DNA of 64,000 nt, taken from contig NZ_JACGXL010000001.1 in the NCBI RefSeq assembly GCF_014138265.1, positions 372,001-436,000 of the forward strand. Reading direction: 5' to 3'. The notes beneath the pieces were generated by a model. That model did no database searches. It had not been told where the DNA came from and saw only the letters and a list, made by a program, of their open reading frames with translations. Positions within the stretch are counted from its first letter, which is position 1; each line of letters starts with the position of its first letter. The position numbers and the translations under genes were made by a program. Shown here piece by piece: positions 7,887 through 64,000 of this stretch. The DNA is from Dokdonella fugitiva (GTDB taxonomy: Bacteria > Pseudomonadota > Gammaproteobacteria > Xanthomonadales > Rhodanobacteraceae).

Positions 7887-8062
7887 GGCTGGATCCTCAT
7901 GGGTCGAGAGAGTCCGCCACATCGCGACCAAGCGGGGTGACGGACGACGCAAGGTTGGTCGACCGGCATGAGGACCGGCAGGGCTTGCGCCCTCCCTGCG
8001 CCGCCCGCCGCAAAGCAGGTGCGCTGTGCGCATGACCCGCCGCAGCGATGGCGGCAGGCATG

Positions 8063-11398: not shown

Positions 11399-11488
11399 TG
11401 GCGGAGAGAGTGGGATTCGAACCCACGGTGGTATCGCTACCACGCCGGTTTTCAAGACCGGTGCCTTAAACCGCTCGGCCATCTCTCC
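11399..11488 (-). tRNA. tRNA-Ser (anticodon UGA), CCA encoded
   Basis: Read on the minus strand the acceptor stem GGAGAGA pairs with TCTCTCC, the D arm contains GGCCGAGCGGTTTAAGGC, the anticodon loop is CTTGAAA (anticodon TGA), a long variable arm (GTGGTA...TACCAC) follows as required for class II tRNA-Ser, and the T loop reads GGTTCGAATCC. The discriminator G is followed by an encoded CCA at 11399-11401. The prophage genes begin just past its 3' end, so this tRNA is the likely attachment site. Confidence 0.97.
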
Positions 11489-56887: not shown

Positions 56888-57922
56888 TCAGGCGGCGAGC
56901 GCGCCGGCCGGCAGCTGCATCGTGAGGCAGTGCACGCTGCCGTTCTGCCAGATCAGTTCACGCGCATCGACCGCGACAACGTCACGCCCCGGGTGCGCCG
57001 CCGCGATCACGCGCGCGGCGGCCGCATCGGACGGATCGCCGTAGGCGGGCATGACGACGCCGCCGTCGACGACCAGGTAGTTCGCGTAGGAGGCCGCGAG
57101 GCGGCGGCCGCCGTCGACGATCGCGCGCGCCCACGGCAGTTCGTGCAGGCGATAGGGGCGACCGTCCAGGGTGCGCAGCGCGGCGATTTCCTCGCGCATG
57201 CGCGCGAGTTCGGCATGGTGCGGATCGGCCGGGTCGTCGCAGGTCTGCAGCACGATCGCGTCGCCGGGCGCATAGCGCGCGAGCGTGTCGATGTGCGCGT
57301 CGGTGTCGTCGCCCTCGAGATAACCGTGTTCGAGCCAGAGCACGCGCTCGACCGCGAACGCGTCGCGCAGCAGCGCGTCCATCTCGGCGCGATCCATGTG
57401 CGGATGGCGCTGGTGCAGGCAACGCCAGGTCGTCAGCAGGCTACCCTTGCCGTCGACTTCGATCGCGCCGCCTTCGAGCGCCCAGTCGATGCGCCGGTGC
57501 GACGCGTCGCCGAACAAGCCGCGCGCGTGCAGCGTCTCGACGAGGCGATCGTCGCGACCGCCTTCGTACTTGCCGCCCCAGCCGGTGAAACGGAAGTCGA
57601 GCAGTTGGAAGCGCCCCGCGGCAGCGAGGGTGAGTGGTCCGGAATCACGCAGCCAGGTGTCGTCGTAGGCGATTTCGACGAAGCGCAGGCGCTCGTTCGC
57701 GACGCCCGCCTCGGCGAGCAGCGCGGTCGCGCGCGAGCGCACCGCCGTGTCGGCGACGCAGACCACCAGCGGTTCGAAGCGCGCGATCGCCGCGGCGAGG
57801 CCGACATAGGCACGCTCGATGCGCGCGAGGCGCGGGCCCCAGTCGGTGTCCGCATGCGGCCAGGCGATGATCACCCCTGCCTGCGGTTCCCACTCGGCAG
57901 GCAGGCGCAAGCTCGACGCCAT
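56888..57922 (-). CDS. aguA: Agmatine deiminase
   Basis: AguA converts agmatine to N-carbamoylputrescine, the step before AguB. The 344-residue protein has the peptidylarginine-deiminase fold signatures: TWLRDSGP near 90, the GGAIEVDGKG near 155, HGYLEGDDTDAHIDT near 205, and the catalytic Cys in WQNGSVHCLTMQLP near 335. Length is typical. It starts 3 bp after the stop of a small periplasmic protein gene on the same strand and its 3' end converges on the diguanylate cyclase gene with a 4-bp gap. Confidence 0.95.
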   Translation of the reverse strand: MASSLRLPAEWEPQAGVIIAWPHADTDWGPRLARIERAYVGLAAAIARFEPLVVCVADTAVRSRATALLAEAGVANERLRFVEIAYDDTWLRDSGPLTLAAAGRFQLLDFRFTGWGGKYEGGRDDRLVETLHARGLFGDASHRRIDWALEGGAIEVDGKGSLLTTWRCLHQRHPHMDRAEMDALLRDAFAVERVLWLEHGYLEGDDTDAHIDTLARYAPGDAIVLQTCDDPADPHHAELARMREEIAALRTLDGRPYRLHELPWARAIVDGGRRLAASYANYLVVDGGVVMPAYGDPSDAAAARVIAAAHPGRDVVAVDARELIWQNGSVHCLTMQLPAGALAA

Positions 57923-58267: not shown

Positions 58268-58394
58268 GGCTCAAATCCTTGTCGGGAAAGGAGGAACTGC
58301 CACTGATCCATACCAGCAGCCGCCTTTTTAGCAGAAGCCTGCTGGCGGTTCCATGACTGCGCCGACAGATGTGCGAGCGGGGCACGCGGCGCGC

Positions 58395-58763: not shown

Positions 58764-59168
58764 TCAGTCGATCGAGAACGACTGCAGGTCGACCGGGTTG
58801 GTCACGCTGATCGAACCGACCATGCCGGAGGCCTGGTGTGCTTCGCAGTGGAAGCCGATCGAGCCGTGCGCCGCGGCCTGGCTGATCGTGATCGTCGCGC
58901 TCCACGCGGCGTTGCTGATGTCGCCGTTGCCGCCATTGCCGTCGCACCCGTTGGCGCAGCGGAACGCGAGCGGCGCGCCCGCATCGGACGCGACGTTGTG
59001 GAAACCGCCGTCGTTGACGAAGGTGACGGTGTCGCCGACGAGCGCCTCGATGTTCGACGGCGTGAACACGAGGCCGGCGCCGCCGACGTGGATCGTGTGG
59101 TCGATCGCGCAGGCGGGGCCGGCGGCGGCGAGGAGGATCGCGGTGAGCAGGGAGGTGGACTTGCGCAT
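58764..59168 (-). CDS. Exported cupredoxin (plastocyanin-like)
   Basis: The 134-residue protein has a signal peptide (cleavage near ACA-IDH, residue 22) and a cupredoxin fold. Type 1 copper ligands are present: His in GGFHNVAS near 57, then Cys, His and Met in [12 protein letters not shown] near 105-116. An insertion with two more cysteines ([12 protein letters not shown], about 69-80) could form a disulphide. Blue copper proteins carry single electrons in the periplasm. Here it is the last gene after a decahaem cytochrome, porin and c4-type cytochrome, so it may pass electrons to or from that conduit. Confidence 0.93.
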
Positions 59169-59285
59169 GGTTTCGTACTCCTTCGGGTTGCGAGCGTGCC
59201 CTGTTCCGGGGCTCGTATCAGCGCGTCCCGTCCCGGGATCGCGTCGTTCGCCGCCGGCGCCCGCCGGCGGCTCGGGTTCGTTCGG

Positions 59286-59963
59286 CTACGGCGCGCCTGC
59301 CTCGAGCCAATGCGCGATGGCATCGACGCTCGCGGCATCGAGCGTGCGCGCGATCGGCGCCATCACATGGCTCGTGCTCGTGAACGGCGAGGCGTCGGCC
59401 GCCAGATCCTTGATCCGCTGCGCGATATAGGCCGCATGCTGGCCGCGCAGCATCGGATAGACGCGCAAGCGCGGATCACCATCGGCACCGGCGCGGCCGC
59501 GCGCGTCCGCACCATGGCAGCCCTGGCACGGCGGTACGCCGGCCGCAGGATCGCCGTCGCGGTAGATCGCCGCGCCGGGCATCGTGCCGGTGCCCGCGGT
59601 GCCTGCCGCCGGCGGCAGGCTCGCGAAATAGGCGGCGAGGTCGCGCATCGAGGCGTCGTCGAGGTTCGCCGCCTGCGCCGTCATCGGCGATTCGGGCTTG
59701 CCGGCCCGCTTGAACATGACGAGGCGCCAGTAGAGGTATTCGGCCTTCTGGCCTGCGAGGTTCGGGAACGTCGGCACGATCGCGATACCGAGCGGCCCGT
59801 GGCACGCGCTGCAGACGCTGGCCTTCGCCTTGCCCGCGGCGGCGTCACCGTGCACGGCGTCGATCGCGCGCAGGTCGACGGGGCCGTTGCCCGCGTGCGC
59901 GAGCGGGATGCCGGCGAGGGCGGTCGCGAAGAGGAAACGGCGCAGGCGTTCGATCGCGGTCAT
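59286..59963 (-). CDS. Dihaem cytochrome c4-like protein
   Basis: A 225-residue exported protein (signal peptide to about AHA-GNG, residue 25) with two class I haem domains: CSACH near 52-56 and CQGCH near 148-152, and axial methionines in PESPMTAQA and SHVMAPIA. This matches cytochrome c4, a periplasmic shuttle between membrane complexes and terminal oxidases. The ATG at 59963 is 12 bp after the porin stop. Its place between outer-membrane conduit and cupredoxin genes suggests it carries electrons across the periplasm for that conduit. Confidence 0.93.
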   Translation of the reverse strand: MTAIERLRRFLFATALAGIPLAHAGNGPVDLRAIDAVHGDAAAGKAKASVCSACHGPLGIAIVPTFPNLAGQKAEYLYWRLVMFKRAGKPESPMTAQAANLDDASMRDLAAYFASLPPAAGTAGTGTMPGAAIYRDGDPAAGVPPCQGCHGADARGRAGADGDPRLRVYPMLRGQHAAYIAQRIKDLAADASPFTSTSHVMAPIARTLDAASVDAIAHWLEAGAP

Positions 59964-59974
59964 GGCGGTTCCCG

Positions 59975-62533
59975 TCACAGGCGCACGTCGAGCAGCAGGC
60001 CGACGAGATTGGCGTCGTAGCTCTGCGGCCCGCCGTCGGTGTACACGCGGTGGTCGAACGCATGCGTCGCGTCGAAGCCGAGGTAGTGCCAATCGCTGAT
60101 GCGGCCGCGTTCATAGACGTCGAACACGCGCAGCGCGACGCGCTCGTGCAGCGGGATGCGCACGCCGATGCTGAGCGAGTCGATGCGGTAGGTCATCGGC
60201 GCGAACGTGCCGCCGCCGGGGCCGTCGCCGATCACGGTGTCGGCCCAGGCGAGCGCGAGCGGCGAGGCGAAGCGGTAGTCGGTCGTGCCGCGCGCATACA
60301 AGTAGTTCCAGCTCGCGTCGACGCGCACGCGGCCGAACGCGTGCGCGAAGACGACGCCCGCGTTGTGGTTGCGCTGCGTGTCGTCGGCCCACCAGCGGCC
60401 GATGTCGACGTAGGTGTTGCCGCCGATGCTCGGATTCGATCCGCTGTCGTTGATCTCGTTGATGTTGGCCATGCGCAGCTTCGAGCGGTCGTACGCGTAG
60501 TAGACGCTCGCGTTGCTGCCGGGCGCGGGCTGCCATTCCCACTGCACGGTCGCGCCGAGCGTGTCGTAGCCCTGGCGTCCGAGCTCGGCGTCGTAGTCGC
60601 TCCAGTCGCCGCGCAGCGAGGCGCTGACCGTCATGTCCTCGCGCGGCATGAACGTCGCCATGAAGTCGAGCTTGCGTTCGTTGCGGCTCGAGACGTCGTA
60701 CTTGCGCAACGCGTCGACCGTGTGCGCGGGCACGCCGGTCGGTGGCGCGACGAAGCCGGGCAGGTCGATCGAATAGGTGAAGTCGTACGGATCGTAGTCG
60801 TAGCGGTCGCCGTCCTGGTGCAGGAACGTGACGTTCGCGCGCAGCGTCAGCCAGTCGAGCGCGCGGTTCGTCCAGCTCAGCTTGAGGCTGCCGTCGTCGA
60901 CCGTGCTGCGCTCGCGATGGGTCGGCTCGTAGCGGCTGAACGCGAGTGTCGCGCCGAGCGTGTCGCGCGCGCCGAGTTTCCAGTCGGCACCGATGTTCGC
61001 TTCGGTCGTCTGCATGTCGAGCGGCAGGCTGCGCACGCGCGTGATCGCCGAAGGATCGCTCGGATCCCAGATGCCCGACTCGCCCGGCACGACGCTGCCT
61101 TGCGAGCCGTTCTCGCTGACGTAGCCGTACTGCCCGGTGAGCGGGTTGTAGGCGAGGTAGACGTTGCGATAGTCCTCGCGCTCGTAGCGCAGGCCGCCGC
61201 GCACGGTGAGGTCCGTGGCCGGCTGCAGCACGATGCGCGCGTCGAGCAGGCTGGTGTCGATGCGCATGTCGGCGGACTTGCGCGACAGCGCGGCCGGCGT
61301 GTTCCAGTTCGCGCAGTCGTACAGGTACGGATTCTGCGGCCCCGTCTGCAGGCTGCCGTCGAGGCCGATGCCGAAAACGCCTTGGCATGCGACCGGCGGG
61401 ATCAGCGTGTCGTCCTGGCTCATGCGGCCACCCGACGCGGTGATCGACAGCTCGCCGTTCATCGGCAGCTTGCGCGTGAACGCGGCCTTGAGGTTGTGGT
61501 AGTCGTTGTCGGGCTCGGTCGCGAACTGGCCGGTCGTCAGCGGCGCCGACACCGCATTGGGAACGAGCGGACTCAGCGCGAACGGCGTCTCGTAGGTGTA
61601 GCGCGTGTAACGGTCGCGGTAGAACGACCCGCTGTAGCCGAAGTCCATGCGCCAGACGCGGCCCGCGTAGCGGAAGCCACCCTCGAGGTTCACGGTCGAG
61701 TCGTCGATCGGCTTGACCGTCTCGAGCACGCCGCCGTTGTCGGGGAACGGGAAATTGAAGAAGAACGGGCCGCCGAAGGGCCGCGCGCCATGGCGCTGCT
61801 CGTCGGTCGCGTTCGCATACGCGGTCCATTGCGGCGTGAGGTAGACGCTGAAGCCGAGTCCCTGCTTCTCGCGCGTGACGCCGAGCGTGCGCTCGGGCGT
61901 AGCCGCCGACAGCGCGGCGATCGCGGCGGGCGAACTCGCGCCGGCCGCGTATCCCGCGGGCAGGGTCAGATGGTCGGTACCGACGCCGTTCCAGATCGGC
62001 TTCGCCGTGTTCGTGACGAGGTTCGGCATGTCGCGCAGGAACGCCTGCACCTTGTAGCTGCCGGCGCGACCGAACACCGCCTGATAGTACTCGTCGTCGT
62101 CGCTGACCCGGCTCGCGCGCACGCTCGCGTAGGTGCCGTCCGCGGCGCGTTCGGCGTCGAACGCGAGCAGGGCGAGCACGATGCCGCCGTCCCAGTCGAC
62201 GTAGCGGTTCCACAAGGCGTTGCCGTCGTCGCCACCGGTCGCGACGGCGCCGATGCTGAGCACGCCGGACGTGCGCCATTCGCCGTGCCCGGCCGTCACC
62301 GGCGGCGGCGGCGGACATGCGTACAGGTTGCCGGTCGGGCTCCGGTGCACGCCGGCTTCGAGCCAGCTCGTGCCGCGTTCGTCGCAGCCGTCGATCGTCG
62401 CGCCGCCGGTCGGGTCGAGCTTGTTCGCGCGCCAGGTGTCGACGCCGACGCCGCTGTCGGCGTGCGCGCGGGCGACGACCGTCGCGATCGCGACGGCGAG
62501 CGGCAGCGGGCGGAGCAGGCGAGGTGTGCGCAT
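59975..62533 (-). CDS. MtrB/PioB-family outer-membrane beta-barrel
   Basis: An 852-residue exported protein (signal peptide to about AHA-DSG, residue 26) whose body is alternating hydrophobic/polar strands ending in an aromatic-poor LLLDVRL strand; the FGYSGSFYRDRYTRYTYETPF, LPMNGELSITASGGRMSQDD and FMPREDMTVSASLRGDWSDYDAELG segments are typical of the MtrB/PioB decahaem-associated family. The barrel sheathes a decahaem cytochrome so electrons cross the outer membrane. Two cysteines near 49 and 73 flank the N-terminal region (the MtrB CXXC motif is not present). It starts 17 bp after the decahaem gene. Confidence 0.93.
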   Translation of the reverse strand: MRTPRLLRPLPLAVAIATVVARAHADSGVGVDTWRANKLDPTGGATIDGCDERGTSWLEAGVHRSPTGNLYACPPPPPVTAGHGEWRTSGVLSIGAVATGGDDGNALWNRYVDWDGGIVLALLAFDAERAADGTYASVRASRVSDDDEYYQAVFGRAGSYKVQAFLRDMPNLVTNTAKPIWNGVGTDHLTLPAGYAAGASSPAAIAALSAATPERTLGVTREKQGLGFSVYLTPQWTAYANATDEQRHGARPFGGPFFFNFPFPDNGGVLETVKPIDDSTVNLEGGFRYAGRVWRMDFGYSGSFYRDRYTRYTYETPFALSPLVPNAVSAPLTTGQFATEPDNDYHNLKAAFTRKLPMNGELSITASGGRMSQDDTLIPPVACQGVFGIGLDGSLQTGPQNPYLYDCANWNTPAALSRKSADMRIDTSLLDARIVLQPATDLTVRGGLRYEREDYRNVYLAYNPLTGQYGYVSENGSQGSVVPGESGIWDPSDPSAITRVRSLPLDMQTTEANIGADWKLGARDTLGATLAFSRYEPTHRERSTVDDGSLKLSWTNRALDWLTLRANVTFLHQDGDRYDYDPYDFTYSIDLPGFVAPPTGVPAHTVDALRKYDVSSRNERKLDFMATFMPREDMTVSASLRGDWSDYDAELGRQGYDTLGATVQWEWQPAPGSNASVYYAYDRSKLRMANINEINDSGSNPSIGGNTYVDIGRWWADDTQRNHNAGVVFAHAFGRVRVDASWNYLYARGTTDYRFASPLALAWADTVIGDGPGGGTFAPMTYRIDSLSIGVRIPLHERVALRVFDVYERGRISDWHYLGFDATHAFDHRVYTDGGPQSYDANLVGLLLDVRL

Positions 62534-62549
62534 CGATCCTCCCGCGGTG

Positions 62550-63608
62550 TCATTCGTGGAACTTCGGACCCGACGGCGCGTTCGAGCCGTGGATGTTCGC
62601 GTGGCAGGTCACGCAGGCGCGTCCCATGGCGCGCTCGTCCGGGTGCTGACCGTTGCCGAGCGAACCGGGCGTGTGCAGGTCGTTCGGATGGCGCAGGCCC
62701 GAATGACATTGCTGGCAGAGGAATGGCAACGGCGTCACGAGCAGCGTCTGCTGGTTGGAGCCGTGCGGCGTGTGGCAGTTGAGGCAACTCTCGCGTACCG
62801 GCGCGTGTTCGAACAGGAACGGCCCGCGCTTCTCCGCATGGCACTGGTAGCAGGTCTCGTTGACCGTGTTCGTCTTCAGCAGCGGGCTGGTGATCGAGCC
62901 GTGCGGGTTGTGGCAGTCGTCGCAGCTCATCTGGCCTTCCGGCAGCGGCATGTGCGAGCGCCGGTTGAACTGCAGGCGTACGTCGCGATGACACTGCGCG
63001 CAGGTGTCGTTGATCGAGGCCTTCGCCATCAGGCCTTCGGCCGAGAACTTCGCCATCGGGTTGTGGCAGTCGCTGCAGGAAAGGCCGTTGCGCTGGTGCA
63101 CGGAGCCGAGCCAGTGGTCGCGCGGGCCGCCTTCATGGCAGGTGAGGCAGGTCTTCGTCTGCGTCTCGATCGGCGTACCGGAATCCTTCGTGTAACCGAT
63201 GATGAGACCCTTCGCACCCGGGTCCTTCGCATGCGCCGATCCGGGGCCGTGGCAGGTCTCGCACACGGGGATCGACGCATCGGCCTTGTTCGCCGCGTGC
63301 AGTCCGAGTGCATGGAACGTGTGGGTGAAGTGTTCGCTCTCGAGCTGGTGGCAGGCGATACAGGTGCGCTCGCCGACCGCCGTCGCGTCCGGCGCGCCAG
63401 GGTTGTCGGCGACCTTCGCCTTGGCGAAACCCGGCGCCGGCGCGGCGTTCATCATCGACGCGCCGGCCTGCACGTCGCCGCCGGTCAGGTTCGTCGACGG
63501 CAACGACCGCGCGAGGTCGTCGCGGCTCTGCTGCGCCAGCGCCGGCACCAGCGTCGCGCATCCCAGCACGAGCGCCAGCAGGCGCCGGATCGCATCAGTG
63601 CTTCGCAT
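62550..63608 (-). CDS. Decahaem c-type cytochrome, DmsE/MtrA/PioA-like
   Basis: The 352-residue protein has a signal peptide (to about ALA-QQS, residue 26) and exactly ten CxxCH sites: CIACH, CETCH, CLTCH, CSDCH, CAQCH, CDDCH, CYQCH, CLNCH, CQQCH and CVTCH. This is the count and spacing of DmsE/MtrA cytochromes that sit inside an MtrB barrel. An N-terminal extension of about 55 residues precedes the first haem. The start at 63608 overlaps the upstream protease gene by 14 bp. No MtrC/OmcA-type surface cytochrome is adjacent, as in Fe(II)-oxidising Pio/Mto systems. Confidence 0.95.
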   Translation of the reverse strand: MRSTDAIRRLLALVLGCATLVPALAQQSRDDLARSLPSTNLTGGDVQAGASMMNAAPAPGFAKAKVADNPGAPDATAVGERTCIACHQLESEHFTHTFHALGLHAANKADASIPVCETCHGPGSAHAKDPGAKGLIIGYTKDSGTPIETQTKTCLTCHEGGPRDHWLGSVHQRNGLSCSDCHNPMAKFSAEGLMAKASINDTCAQCHRDVRLQFNRRSHMPLPEGQMSCDDCHNPHGSITSPLLKTNTVNETCYQCHAEKRGPFLFEHAPVRESCLNCHTPHGSNQQTLLVTPLPFLCQQCHSGLRHPNDLHTPGSLGNGQHPDERAMGRACVTCHANIHGSNAPSGPKFHE

Positions 63609-64000
63609 GGGCCAGTCCCGTTCCCGTGGTCGACGAATCACAGCCTTCGCTCTTGCGCGTGAGCGTGCGCACCGCCGCGCACGCGTCGATCGATGCATCC
63701 ACGCTGCGACTGGAGCCGTCGAGCAGAGCGAACAGCGCCTTCGCATCGAGGCGCGGATCGAGTTCGAGCAGCAGCGCGACCGCTCCGGTCACGTGCGCGG
63801 TCGCAAGCGAACTGCCGGACGCGTAATCGTAGTGGCCGCCGGGTTCGAGCGTGAGGATGTCGCGGCCGGGCGCAGCGAGGGCGGGGCGCGCCGCGGCCGG
63901 CGAGTCGCTGCTGCGCACGGCGATGACGCCGTCGACGTCGACCGGGAAACCGTCCATGCGCGCGTCGGGCGGCACCGCGCCGACGACGATGATGCCGCGT
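63595..64000 (-). CDS. Subtilase (S8 family) C-terminal part, 5' end outside window
   Basis: The frame is open to the window edge; 135 residues are visible. The catalytic-serine motif SGSSLATAHVTGAVALLL (G-S-S-x-A-x-x-H-V-x-G) and the preceding oxyanion region and GIIVVGAVP strand identify a subtilisin-like serine protease. A C-terminal tail of about 50 residues with two cysteines follows. Its stop overlaps the decahaem cytochrome gene by 14 bp, so the protease is cotranscribed with the electron conduit and may process a surface partner; this is inference. Asp and His of the triad lie outside the window. Confidence 0.9.
   Translation of the reverse strand, partial: RGIIVVGAVPPDARMDGFPVDVDGVIAVRSSDSPAAARPALAAPGRDILTLEPGGHYDYASGSSLATAHVTGAVALLLELDPRLDAKALFALLDGSSRSVDASIDACAAVRTLTRKSEGCDSSTTGTGLAHAKH

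Follow-up and report, generated by a model that had tools for sequence, protein, structure and literature searches.

Outer-membrane electron conduits of the MtrAB type that lack MtrC are not new, PioAB and MtoAB being of that kind (PMC8805035; this and the other papers are cited here for parts of their text). In this study, we analysed a 64,000-nucleotide stretch of the Dokdonella fugitiva genome (4.77 Mb), here called the window, which covers positions 372001 to 436000 of contig C1; window position n is C1 position 372000+n, and the numbering is continued past 64000. An operon that extends beyond the end of the window contains, in order, genes for an extracytoplasmic function (ECF) sigma factor, an anti-sigma factor, a subtilase, an MtrA-type decahaem cytochrome, an MtrB barrel, a c4-like cytochrome and a cupredoxin. 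We propose that these seven genes build and control an outer-membrane electron conduit, with a proposed inward flow of electrons and a sigma switch opened by the protease, and we put the probability of this reading at roughly 0.6. The new element is the control of the conduit, through the sigma/anti-sigma/subtilase triad and a promoter motif, and not the occurrence of MtrAB without MtrC.

In the PioABC system of the phototroph Rhodopseudomonas palustris TIE-1, as here, a decahaem cytochrome is combined with an MtrB/PioB barrel in the absence of MtrC, and the operon encodes a soluble high-potential carrier, PioC. That carrier is a high-potential iron-sulfur protein, whereas a dihaem c4 and a cupredoxin are encoded here, and we know of no sigma/anti-sigma/subtilase triad for pio. 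The MtrCAB complex of Shewanella has homologues of both MtrA and MtrB (chains A and B of structure 6r2q, which we take to be the Shewanella baltica MtrCAB complex, a name that the molecule descriptions of the entry do not give), but neither MtrC nor CymA was found in the D. fugitiva genome. In Acidithiobacillus, Cyc2 is accompanied by Cyc1, a c4-type dihaem cytochrome, and by rusticyanin, a cupredoxin; the likeness to the present locus lies in the combination of outer-membrane cytochrome, c4-type dihaem protein and cupredoxin in a single pathway, and in the Cyc2-type protein that occupies the equivalent slot in relatives, whereas the outer-membrane part here is MtrAB and the genome has no Cyc2-type match. 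Inward flow through PioABC is in print (PMC8805035, PMC6831781), and an inward direction has been proposed for the MtrAB-type conduit of Sideroxydans lithotrophicus ES-1, MtoAB-MtoD-ImoA, in which MtoD may feed a terminal oxidase (PMC13390432). ES-1 differs in having the inner-membrane tetrahaem protein ImoA (PMC13390432), while no NapC/CymA-type protein was found here; in having a monohaem MtoD where this operon encodes a dihaem c4; and in having its cupredoxins, which are expressed on magnetite, in a cluster of their own, Slit_1812-1818 (PMC12016527).

The original prediction, made from the window alone, described genes for a decahaem cytochrome, a barrel, a c4-type cytochrome and a cupredoxin that follow each other on one strand, with a subtilase gene overlapping the first. 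Open reading frames (ORFs) and family matches confirm that the five genes are contiguous and all lie on the minus strand (Table 1). It was also proposed that the sequence be extended past 64,000 in search of more cytochrome genes; that region holds two further operon genes instead, on the same strand and at the 5' end, which encode the ECF sigma factor and then a zinc-finger anti-sigma factor. From 5' to 3', the intergenic junctions along the operon measure 2, 7, -14, 16, 11 and 117 nt, and neither sigma-70-type promoter nor terminator-like sites were detected across positions 58300 to 67200, where shuffled sequences gave means of 0.5 and 4.1, respectively. With a cytochrome start at 63608, the subtilase and decahaem genes share 14 nt (63595-63608); the overlap grows if the longest-ORF start, 63746, is used. 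The sigma factor has sigma70 regions 2 and 4 and is adjoined by a zf-HC2 protein, as in the class of ECF sigma factors with zinc-finger anti-sigma factors, and the H, C and C of the HxxxCxxC zinc finger are invariant in all 10 aligned anti-sigma sequences. Among solved structures, the decahaem protein matches 6r2q_A (E 6e-60) and the barrel 6r2q_B (E 8e-20); for the narrower family TIGR03509, the barrel scores 214 bits, which is below the cut-off of 240. The MtrA-type decahaem protein and the adjoining MtrB/PioB barrel that characterize the MtrAB/PioAB/MtoAB class are both present. A ligand pattern of His...Cys..His..Met can be read from the cupredoxin sequence, which also has an insert with two cysteines. 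MtrB is 90% identical to its counterpart in D. fugitiva A3, where the queried genes occur in the same order.

Genome-wide searches, within their limited sensitivity, bore out the view that no MtrC-type or CymA-type partner is present. PF22113 (MtrC/MtrF) and PF03264 (NapC/CymA) had no matches in the genome, in searches that were less sensitive than hmmscan, since they did not list the weak matches of the decahaem protein itself to these two families (41 and 33.5 bits, respectively); the decahaem protein was the only one in the genome matched by Paired_CXXCH (PF09699). Candidate partners of the MtrC, CymA, Cyc2, RuBisCO and dimethyl sulfoxide (DMSO) reductase kinds were all sought in this genome, and none was found or none exceeded its cut-off. 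The profile for the Cyc2-type protein matched nothing in it but had matches in 4 of the 15 other genomes of the same genus that were included in that search. On these results, the genome is predicted to encode an outer-membrane conduit of the MtrAB type, for which the genome-wide searches turned up neither MtrC nor CymA.

To place the operon among its relatives, 43 named MtrAB loci were collected by an MtrB search, and 40 anti-sigma loci were chosen by us from the listed profile matches, across scores and genera; Cyc2 loci were not sought in this way. By tblastn, MtrA was upstream of MtrB in every one of the 43 named loci and a c4 gene was downstream of MtrB in 42, with a cupredoxin gene between them in 5; the exception, L103, is at a contig end. 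Two loci have a tandem second MtrA-MtrB-c4 set behind the first (L076, 12462-16716; L079, 12610-17011), and the second MtrB copies fall on long branches. The anti-sigma profile matched 76 of 299 genomes of the order, 68 of them with at least 80 bits. A subtilase gene came next after the anti-sigma gene in 39 of the 40 loci, and 36 of the 40 had no MtrAB in the stretch. Judged by gene order, therefore, the sigma, anti-sigma and subtilase genes form a conserved triad, a second module beside MtrA-MtrB-c4. The protease had earlier been regarded as an unusual member fused into the transcript; it is instead the third gene of this triad, which recurs in many genomes without adjoining MtrAB. A locus from the same genus, L173, illustrates the point: its order (TorF, sigma, anti-sigma, subtilase, cupredoxin, L36, a hypothetical gene [HYP], agmatine deiminase) is that of the window flanks minus MtrA-MtrB-c4, and its genome carries MtrAB on another contig. 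In one genome of the order, three more subtilase-like stretches follow a distant triad (L176, 8272-12280).

After duplicate rows were merged, 52 distinct triad loci were available, among which MtrAB loci had been sought on purpose; 18 of these have a Cyc2-type gene, 14 have MtrAB, 20 have neither and none has both. The corresponding counts for the 40 anti-sigma loci are 17 (16 by motif and L161 by similarity), 4, 19 and 0. Linkage was tabulated for the 32 genomes with a strong MtrB match (31 from the same family plus G260) out of 102 over the cut-off; the other 70, which belong to other families and include none of the 68 genomes with an anti-sigma match of at least 80 bits, were left out. Both genes, at these strengths, are present in 28 genomes and lie within 10 kb of each other in 8, compared with about 0.2 expected by chance in a binomial calculation whose assumption of independent genomes does not hold. 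The linked loci belong to the Tahibacter, Dokdonella, Rhodanobacter-type and Dyella lineages and have several gene orders, and the linked state changed at least 7 times, gains and losses together, on a quick 56-row MtrB tree with long branches and 11 open forks. In L087 and L099, a LysR-type gene (named by eye) is found beside MtrA in place of the triad.

The best evidence for inward, Fe(II)-type uptake comes from the interchange of conduits at this locus. In many relatives, from the same family and from a second family of the order, an FdtA-like sugar isomerase gene and a divergent pair of promoter motifs are followed by genes for cytochrome b561, a monohaem protein, a cytochrome c, TorF, sigma, anti-sigma and subtilase. 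The monohaem protein, 450 aa long, had no fitting match among Pfam or NCBIfam families; the signature AxPx[F/Y]ARQT...CXXCH...PxL is present in 16 of the 40 anti-sigma loci, with the Phe form in 7 of those 16 and a PxL spacing that varies, as judged by eye. The rule used to recognize Cyc2 was AxPxFAR[QK][TY] upstream of a single CXXCH, PxL after it and a length of more than 365 aa (PMC8406198), the published exact spacings not being required. The AxPxFAR[Q/K][T/Y] motif is described as unique to Cyc2, and the Cyc2 proteins that have been tested oxidise Fe(II) (PMC8406198); Cyc2 homologues in the Rhodanobacteraceae are already in print (PMC10654088, PMC5566968). In one relative (L195, from genome G188), the order is FdtA, divergent motif pair, MtrA, MtrB, c4, TorF, sigma, anti-sigma and S8, and MtrA starts 73 nt behind one motif of the pair. 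On this alignment of gene orders, MtrA-MtrB-c4 stands exactly where other relatives have the Cyc2-type cassette, and G188 shares its genus with the Cyc2-carrying G141, G264 and G292. In L149 and L163, MtrA-MtrB-c4 is ahead of TorF and sigma, in fetched stretches that end before the genes further upstream, and in L196 and L102 it lies in inverted orientation, with FdtA on one side and TorF or sigma on the other.

That one locus can hold either a Cyc2-type or an MtrAB-type conduit argues that the two types serve the same purpose in these bacteria. Because the partner in the slot is of the Cyc2 type, because c4 and cupredoxin are carriers of the kind familiar from Fe(II) oxidation with Cyc2 and because no quinol-side cytochrome was found, inward flow is the most likely direction. 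The original prediction had pointed the same way on the strength of the copper protein and c4. The support is indirect: it comes mainly from the Cyc2-type protein in the same slot of relatives and, beside this, from the resemblance of c4 and cupredoxin to Cyc1 and rusticyanin. The direction itself, together with the substrate, the signal and the cleavage of the anti-sigma factor, is something that we infer.

The same conduit could be run outward, with the bc1 complex feeding c4 and with electrons passing through MtrA and MtrB to an extracellular acceptor at low oxygen. The relatives are heterotrophs, and no RuBisCO was found in the genome, as would suit such a use. Both inward and outward operation of MtrCAB, moreover, has been achieved (PMC8805035). 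We nevertheless regard outward flow as unlikely, with perhaps one chance in a few, since no CymA/NapC, MtrC or other Paired_CXXCH protein was found in the genome, cupredoxins share the promoter and the slot partner is a Cyc2-type protein, the tested members of that type being Fe(II) oxidisers (PMC8406198).

The evidence that the subtilase is part of a switch comes from the anti-sigma factor, in which the zinc finger is followed by a single hydrophobic helix and then by a C-terminal domain some 85 residues long. The last residues of this domain are VLLVEP or IRLAEP in most sequences, and those of the subtilase pro-domain are VSLAEP or VRLAQP. When the two were compared by hhalign, a probability of 74 was obtained (E 2.8e-5, score 32.3); none of 200 column shuffles reached this score (best 25.8), and seven windows of the catalytic domain scored 9.9 to 15.4. 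Full-length against full-length comparison aligned the same two segments, with a probability of 20 and an E value of 0.001. An AlphaFold2 (AF2) model of the periplasmic domain (mean predicted local distance difference test score [pLDDT] 76) has the order beta-alpha-beta-beta-alpha-beta, and the top ten rows of a VIA-align search with it were all subtilase pro-domains (Z 7.2-7.9, in the range under 8 for which the tool issues a warning). From these alignments and the model, we read the C-terminal domain as a probable copy of the subtilase pro-domain. The simplest use of such a copy would be docking on the co-encoded subtilase, as substrate or inhibitor; the resemblance makes the protease most likely part of the switch, and its target is likely to be the anti-sigma factor. 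A correlated loss of the terminal EP of the anti-sigma factor where the subtilase is missing, as in Dyella subtropica, was considered and rejected, because L167 and L168 have a subtilase and also lack EP; the terminal EP varies, too, in the distant loci L175-L180 and L184.

The subtilase itself starts with a signal-like stretch, and its model (pLDDT 69) shows the usual subtilase fold and is closest to pro-subtilisin E. These properties would equally suit a general secreted protease, or a maturation factor for the conduit, whose position between regulator and cytochrome genes is incidental, and MtrA does directly follow the subtilase gene in Tahibacter and Dokdonella. That explanation seems improbable to us, given that the subtilase stays with sigma and anti-sigma in all but one of the 40 loci, most of them without MtrAB in the stretch, and that the anti-sigma factor carries a domain like the subtilase pro-domain. 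The catalytic D, H and S are invariant in 7 of 7 aligned subtilases, and the usual oxyanion Asn motif (AAGN) is replaced by AxPxD in the same 7; judging from this replacement, the absence of the usual Asn may mean a slow, specific enzyme.

Membrane anti-sigma factors that are opened by a first protease are known from RseA and DegS. Like RseA/DegS and RsiV (the latter from part of its published description), the present system combines an ECF sigma factor, a single-pass zinc-finger anti-sigma factor and an exported protease candidate; it differs in that the protease is a co-transcribed subtilase and that the C-terminal domain of the anti-sigma factor resembles a subtilase pro-domain.

A third line of evidence concerns the promoter. 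Regions upstream of the sigma genes share CAACCTTT, followed after 12-13 nt by CGG[T/C]AC, and this motif was matched, with one fixed spacing, in 31 of the 40 loci. The exact pattern CAACCTTN13GGYAC was scanned in five genomes of our choice. In the D. fugitiva genome it has two sites, one before the sigma gene and the other 10 nt before a gene for a 407-aa cupredoxin-domain protein (C2:195050), which is among the three or more other genomic sites matched by the DNA of the operon's cupredoxin gene (C1:1268098 and C2:308634 are also among them). The five genomes together gave 10 matches, at 3 sigma genes, 2 MtrA genes, 3 cupredoxin genes and 2 chance-like positions, so that 8 of the 10 are 2-79 nt upstream of sigma, MtrA or cupredoxin genes; the two MtrA genes, 28 nt (G010) and 38 nt (G031) from their sites, are far from sigma. 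The reversed pattern had 0, 0, 0, 4 and 5 matches in the same genomes. With a weight matrix trained on the sigma sites (score of at least 15 within 400 nt), hits were obtained for 7 of 74 MtrA rows, from 4 genomes and including some rows that represent one genome twice, and for 5 of 23 cupredoxin rows, also from 4 genomes; the motif was found ahead of TorF in 0 of 19 rows. A score of 15 arises once per 4 million random positions in a Markov background and never in the window. As the loci themselves include true sites, P-values against random stretches of them were discarded in favour of the Markov background and the window. Sigma genes, certain cupredoxin genes and a small number of MtrA genes have this rare putative promoter motif in common. 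In some lineages, though not in the majority, MtrAB-c4 is most likely transcribed under the control of the sigma factor in trans.

The unlinked MtrA genes with the same motif also bear on the possibility that defence against copper or redox stress is the task of the regulator and the cupredoxin, with MtrAB-c4 carried along as a passenger in an envelope-stress operon. L173, with the same flanks as L069 and the window but without MtrAB-c4, fits that account, as do the triad loci with no conduit in view. We consider it doubtful, given the sites in G010 and G031 and the repeated changes of linkage on the tree. In a DmsE-type use, the decahaem protein and barrel would supply electrons to a molybdo-reductase at the cell surface, of the DMSO type or another, whose gene lies elsewhere. 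We consider this highly improbable, even though the decahaem protein exceeds the TIGR03508 DmsE-family cut-off (the family name is broad and the closest structure is 6r2q_A). Such a reductase partner, named in the original prediction as grounds for refutation, was sought among the four molybdopterin-family proteins of the genome. Curated cut-offs identify two of these as formate dehydrogenases and one as NuoG; the fourth, on contig C7, is below every curated cut-off and of unclear type. None reaches the cut-offs for DmsA/TorA (including dmsA_ynfE) and none is encoded in the operon, in a search that covered this genome and not the neighbourhoods in relatives.

On the preferred reading, that of a conduit working inward under a protease-opened switch, a donor outside the cell (Fe(II), a mineral or a reduced organic compound, for example) would give up electrons that MtrA, lodged in MtrB, would take across the outer membrane, and c4 and the cupredoxin would be the high-potential carriers from there to a terminal oxidase; this uptake would supplement heterotrophic growth and would not support CO2 fixation by RuBisCO. 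It can be envisaged that the membrane-bound anti-sigma factor holds the sigma factor and that its periplasmic domain, mimicking the subtilase pro-domain, docks on the co-transcribed subtilase. An envelope signal would then lead the subtilase to make the first cut, the anti-sigma factor would be degraded and the freed sigma factor would activate its own operon together with the cupredoxins and the conduit. The occurrence of the same switch beside unrelated conduits suggests a dedicated control system for extracellular electron uptake. A more general scheme, in which a protease-gated ECF switch with a pro-domain copy as bait governs exchangeable conduits (MtrAB-c4 or b561-Cyc2-cytochrome c) in one slot, with cupredoxins as frequent members of the regulon, is put forward tentatively, as falling somewhat short of an even chance.

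Several observations weigh against this reading. We know of no tested function for the Cyc2-type proteins of this clade, and, as noted above, no RuBisCO was found in the genome. Function is described as most uncertain for Cyc2 cluster 3 (PMC8406198), the relatives' proteins carrying no cluster assignment here. Of the 43 named loci, just 9 show the triad near MtrAB (in a further 5, the sequence is too short for a decision), for which reason the triad as a universal MtrAB regulator was rejected, and the two genes are not within 10 kb in 20 of the 28 genomes that have both. The 20 of 52 triad loci with no conduit in the stretch imply that the switch has other uses or that the conduit is elsewhere. 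In Dyella subtropica (L102, L199), sigma and anti-sigma are kept with no subtilase behind them; its MtrB is nested among Rhodanobacter rows, and its MtrA-MtrB-c4 is inverted between FdtA and sigma. The promoter motif is missing upstream of most MtrA genes, and in two of the five scanned genomes, G007 and G305, the exact pattern does not precede the sigma gene. As to the pro-domain, Z values below 8 call forth the tool's warning of common arrangements, a ribosomal protein follows at Z 7.1 with RNA-binding proteins close behind, Foldseek ranks pro-domains high with no E value below 0.001, and Pfam I9 has no match in the anti-sigma factor. Finally, the replaced oxyanion Asn makes the activity of the subtilase less than certain.

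To our knowledge, what makes bacteria build an outer-membrane electron conduit is poorly understood. No paper on an anti-sigma/subtilase pair with a pro-domain-like domain was found in the open-access literature searched, and a sigma/anti-sigma/subtilase unit beside MtrAB or Cyc2 is undescribed there, including in the relevant parts of PMC12016527, PMC10654088, PMC5566968, PMC8805035, PMC8406198, PMC10734462 and PMC13390432; because the search covered open-access papers only, this is a weak absence. If the proposal is correct, heterotrophic Rhodanobacteraceae hold a regulated, exchangeable function for electron uptake, under a switch that is new to the literature searched; and if the subtilase does open the anti-sigma factor through the pro-domain copy, it would represent a first-cut mechanism for which no paper was found in that literature. 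With a regulator, a candidate protease and a sharp promoter motif in hand, the regulon is directly testable and can be used to find other conduit genes, and the exchange of conduits provides a genetic handle on Fe(II) oxidation as against electrode uptake.

Table 1. Features of the conduit operon and its surroundings, in window numbering (positions above 64000 are past the window end)
Feature	Position	Strand	Family match or remark
C4 antisense RNA	7933-8015	-	RF01695, 58 bits, over gathering score
tRNA gene	11402-11488	-	Rfam tRNA, 63 bits
PAD_porph (agmatine deiminase-type) gene	56888-57922	-	
Ribosomal L36 ORF	58451-58720	-	
Plastocyanin-like cupredoxin	58764-59168	-	PF00127 Copper-bind, 38.5 bits; TIGR02656, 43 bits, under 87.85 cut-off
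Dihaem c4-like periplasmic cytochrome	59286-59963	-	Cytochrom_C PF00034 in two stretches; 2 CXXCH
MtrB/PioB outer-membrane barrel	59975-62533	-	PF11854, 305 bits (gathering 23)
Decahaem c-type cytochrome, MtrA/PioA/DmsE family	62550-63608	-	10 CXXCH; TIGR03508, 253 bits (cut-off 192)
Subtilase (S8)	63595-64944 (in-window 3' part 63595-64000)	-	Peptidase_S8 PF00082, 110 bits, E 1e-31
Anti-sigma factor	64952-65584	-	zf-HC2, 25.2 bits (cut-off 22.2); pro-domain-like C-terminus
ECF sigma factor	65587-66240 (or start 66204)	-	Sigma70_r2 and r4_2; TIGR02937, 77 bits (cut-off 42.9)
ECF-type promoter motif (putative)	66243-66266		Ahead of sigma gene, outside window
TorF-type porin, divergent	66369-67136	+	TIGR02001, 46.1 bits, just under 47.15
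Two cytochrome P450-like ORFs, then MATE-type transporter-like ORF	67467-72045	+	Named by eye

The L36 and agmatine deiminase-type genes adjoin the operon in the window, in L069 and in L173, and the P450-like and transporter-like ORFs are on its other side, past the window end. At the far end of the window, a C4 antisense RNA was detected. C4 RNA belongs to immunity in phages P1 and P4, so a prophage or its remnant is likely to be nearby, and the tRNA gene a few kilobases away is a possible integration site.

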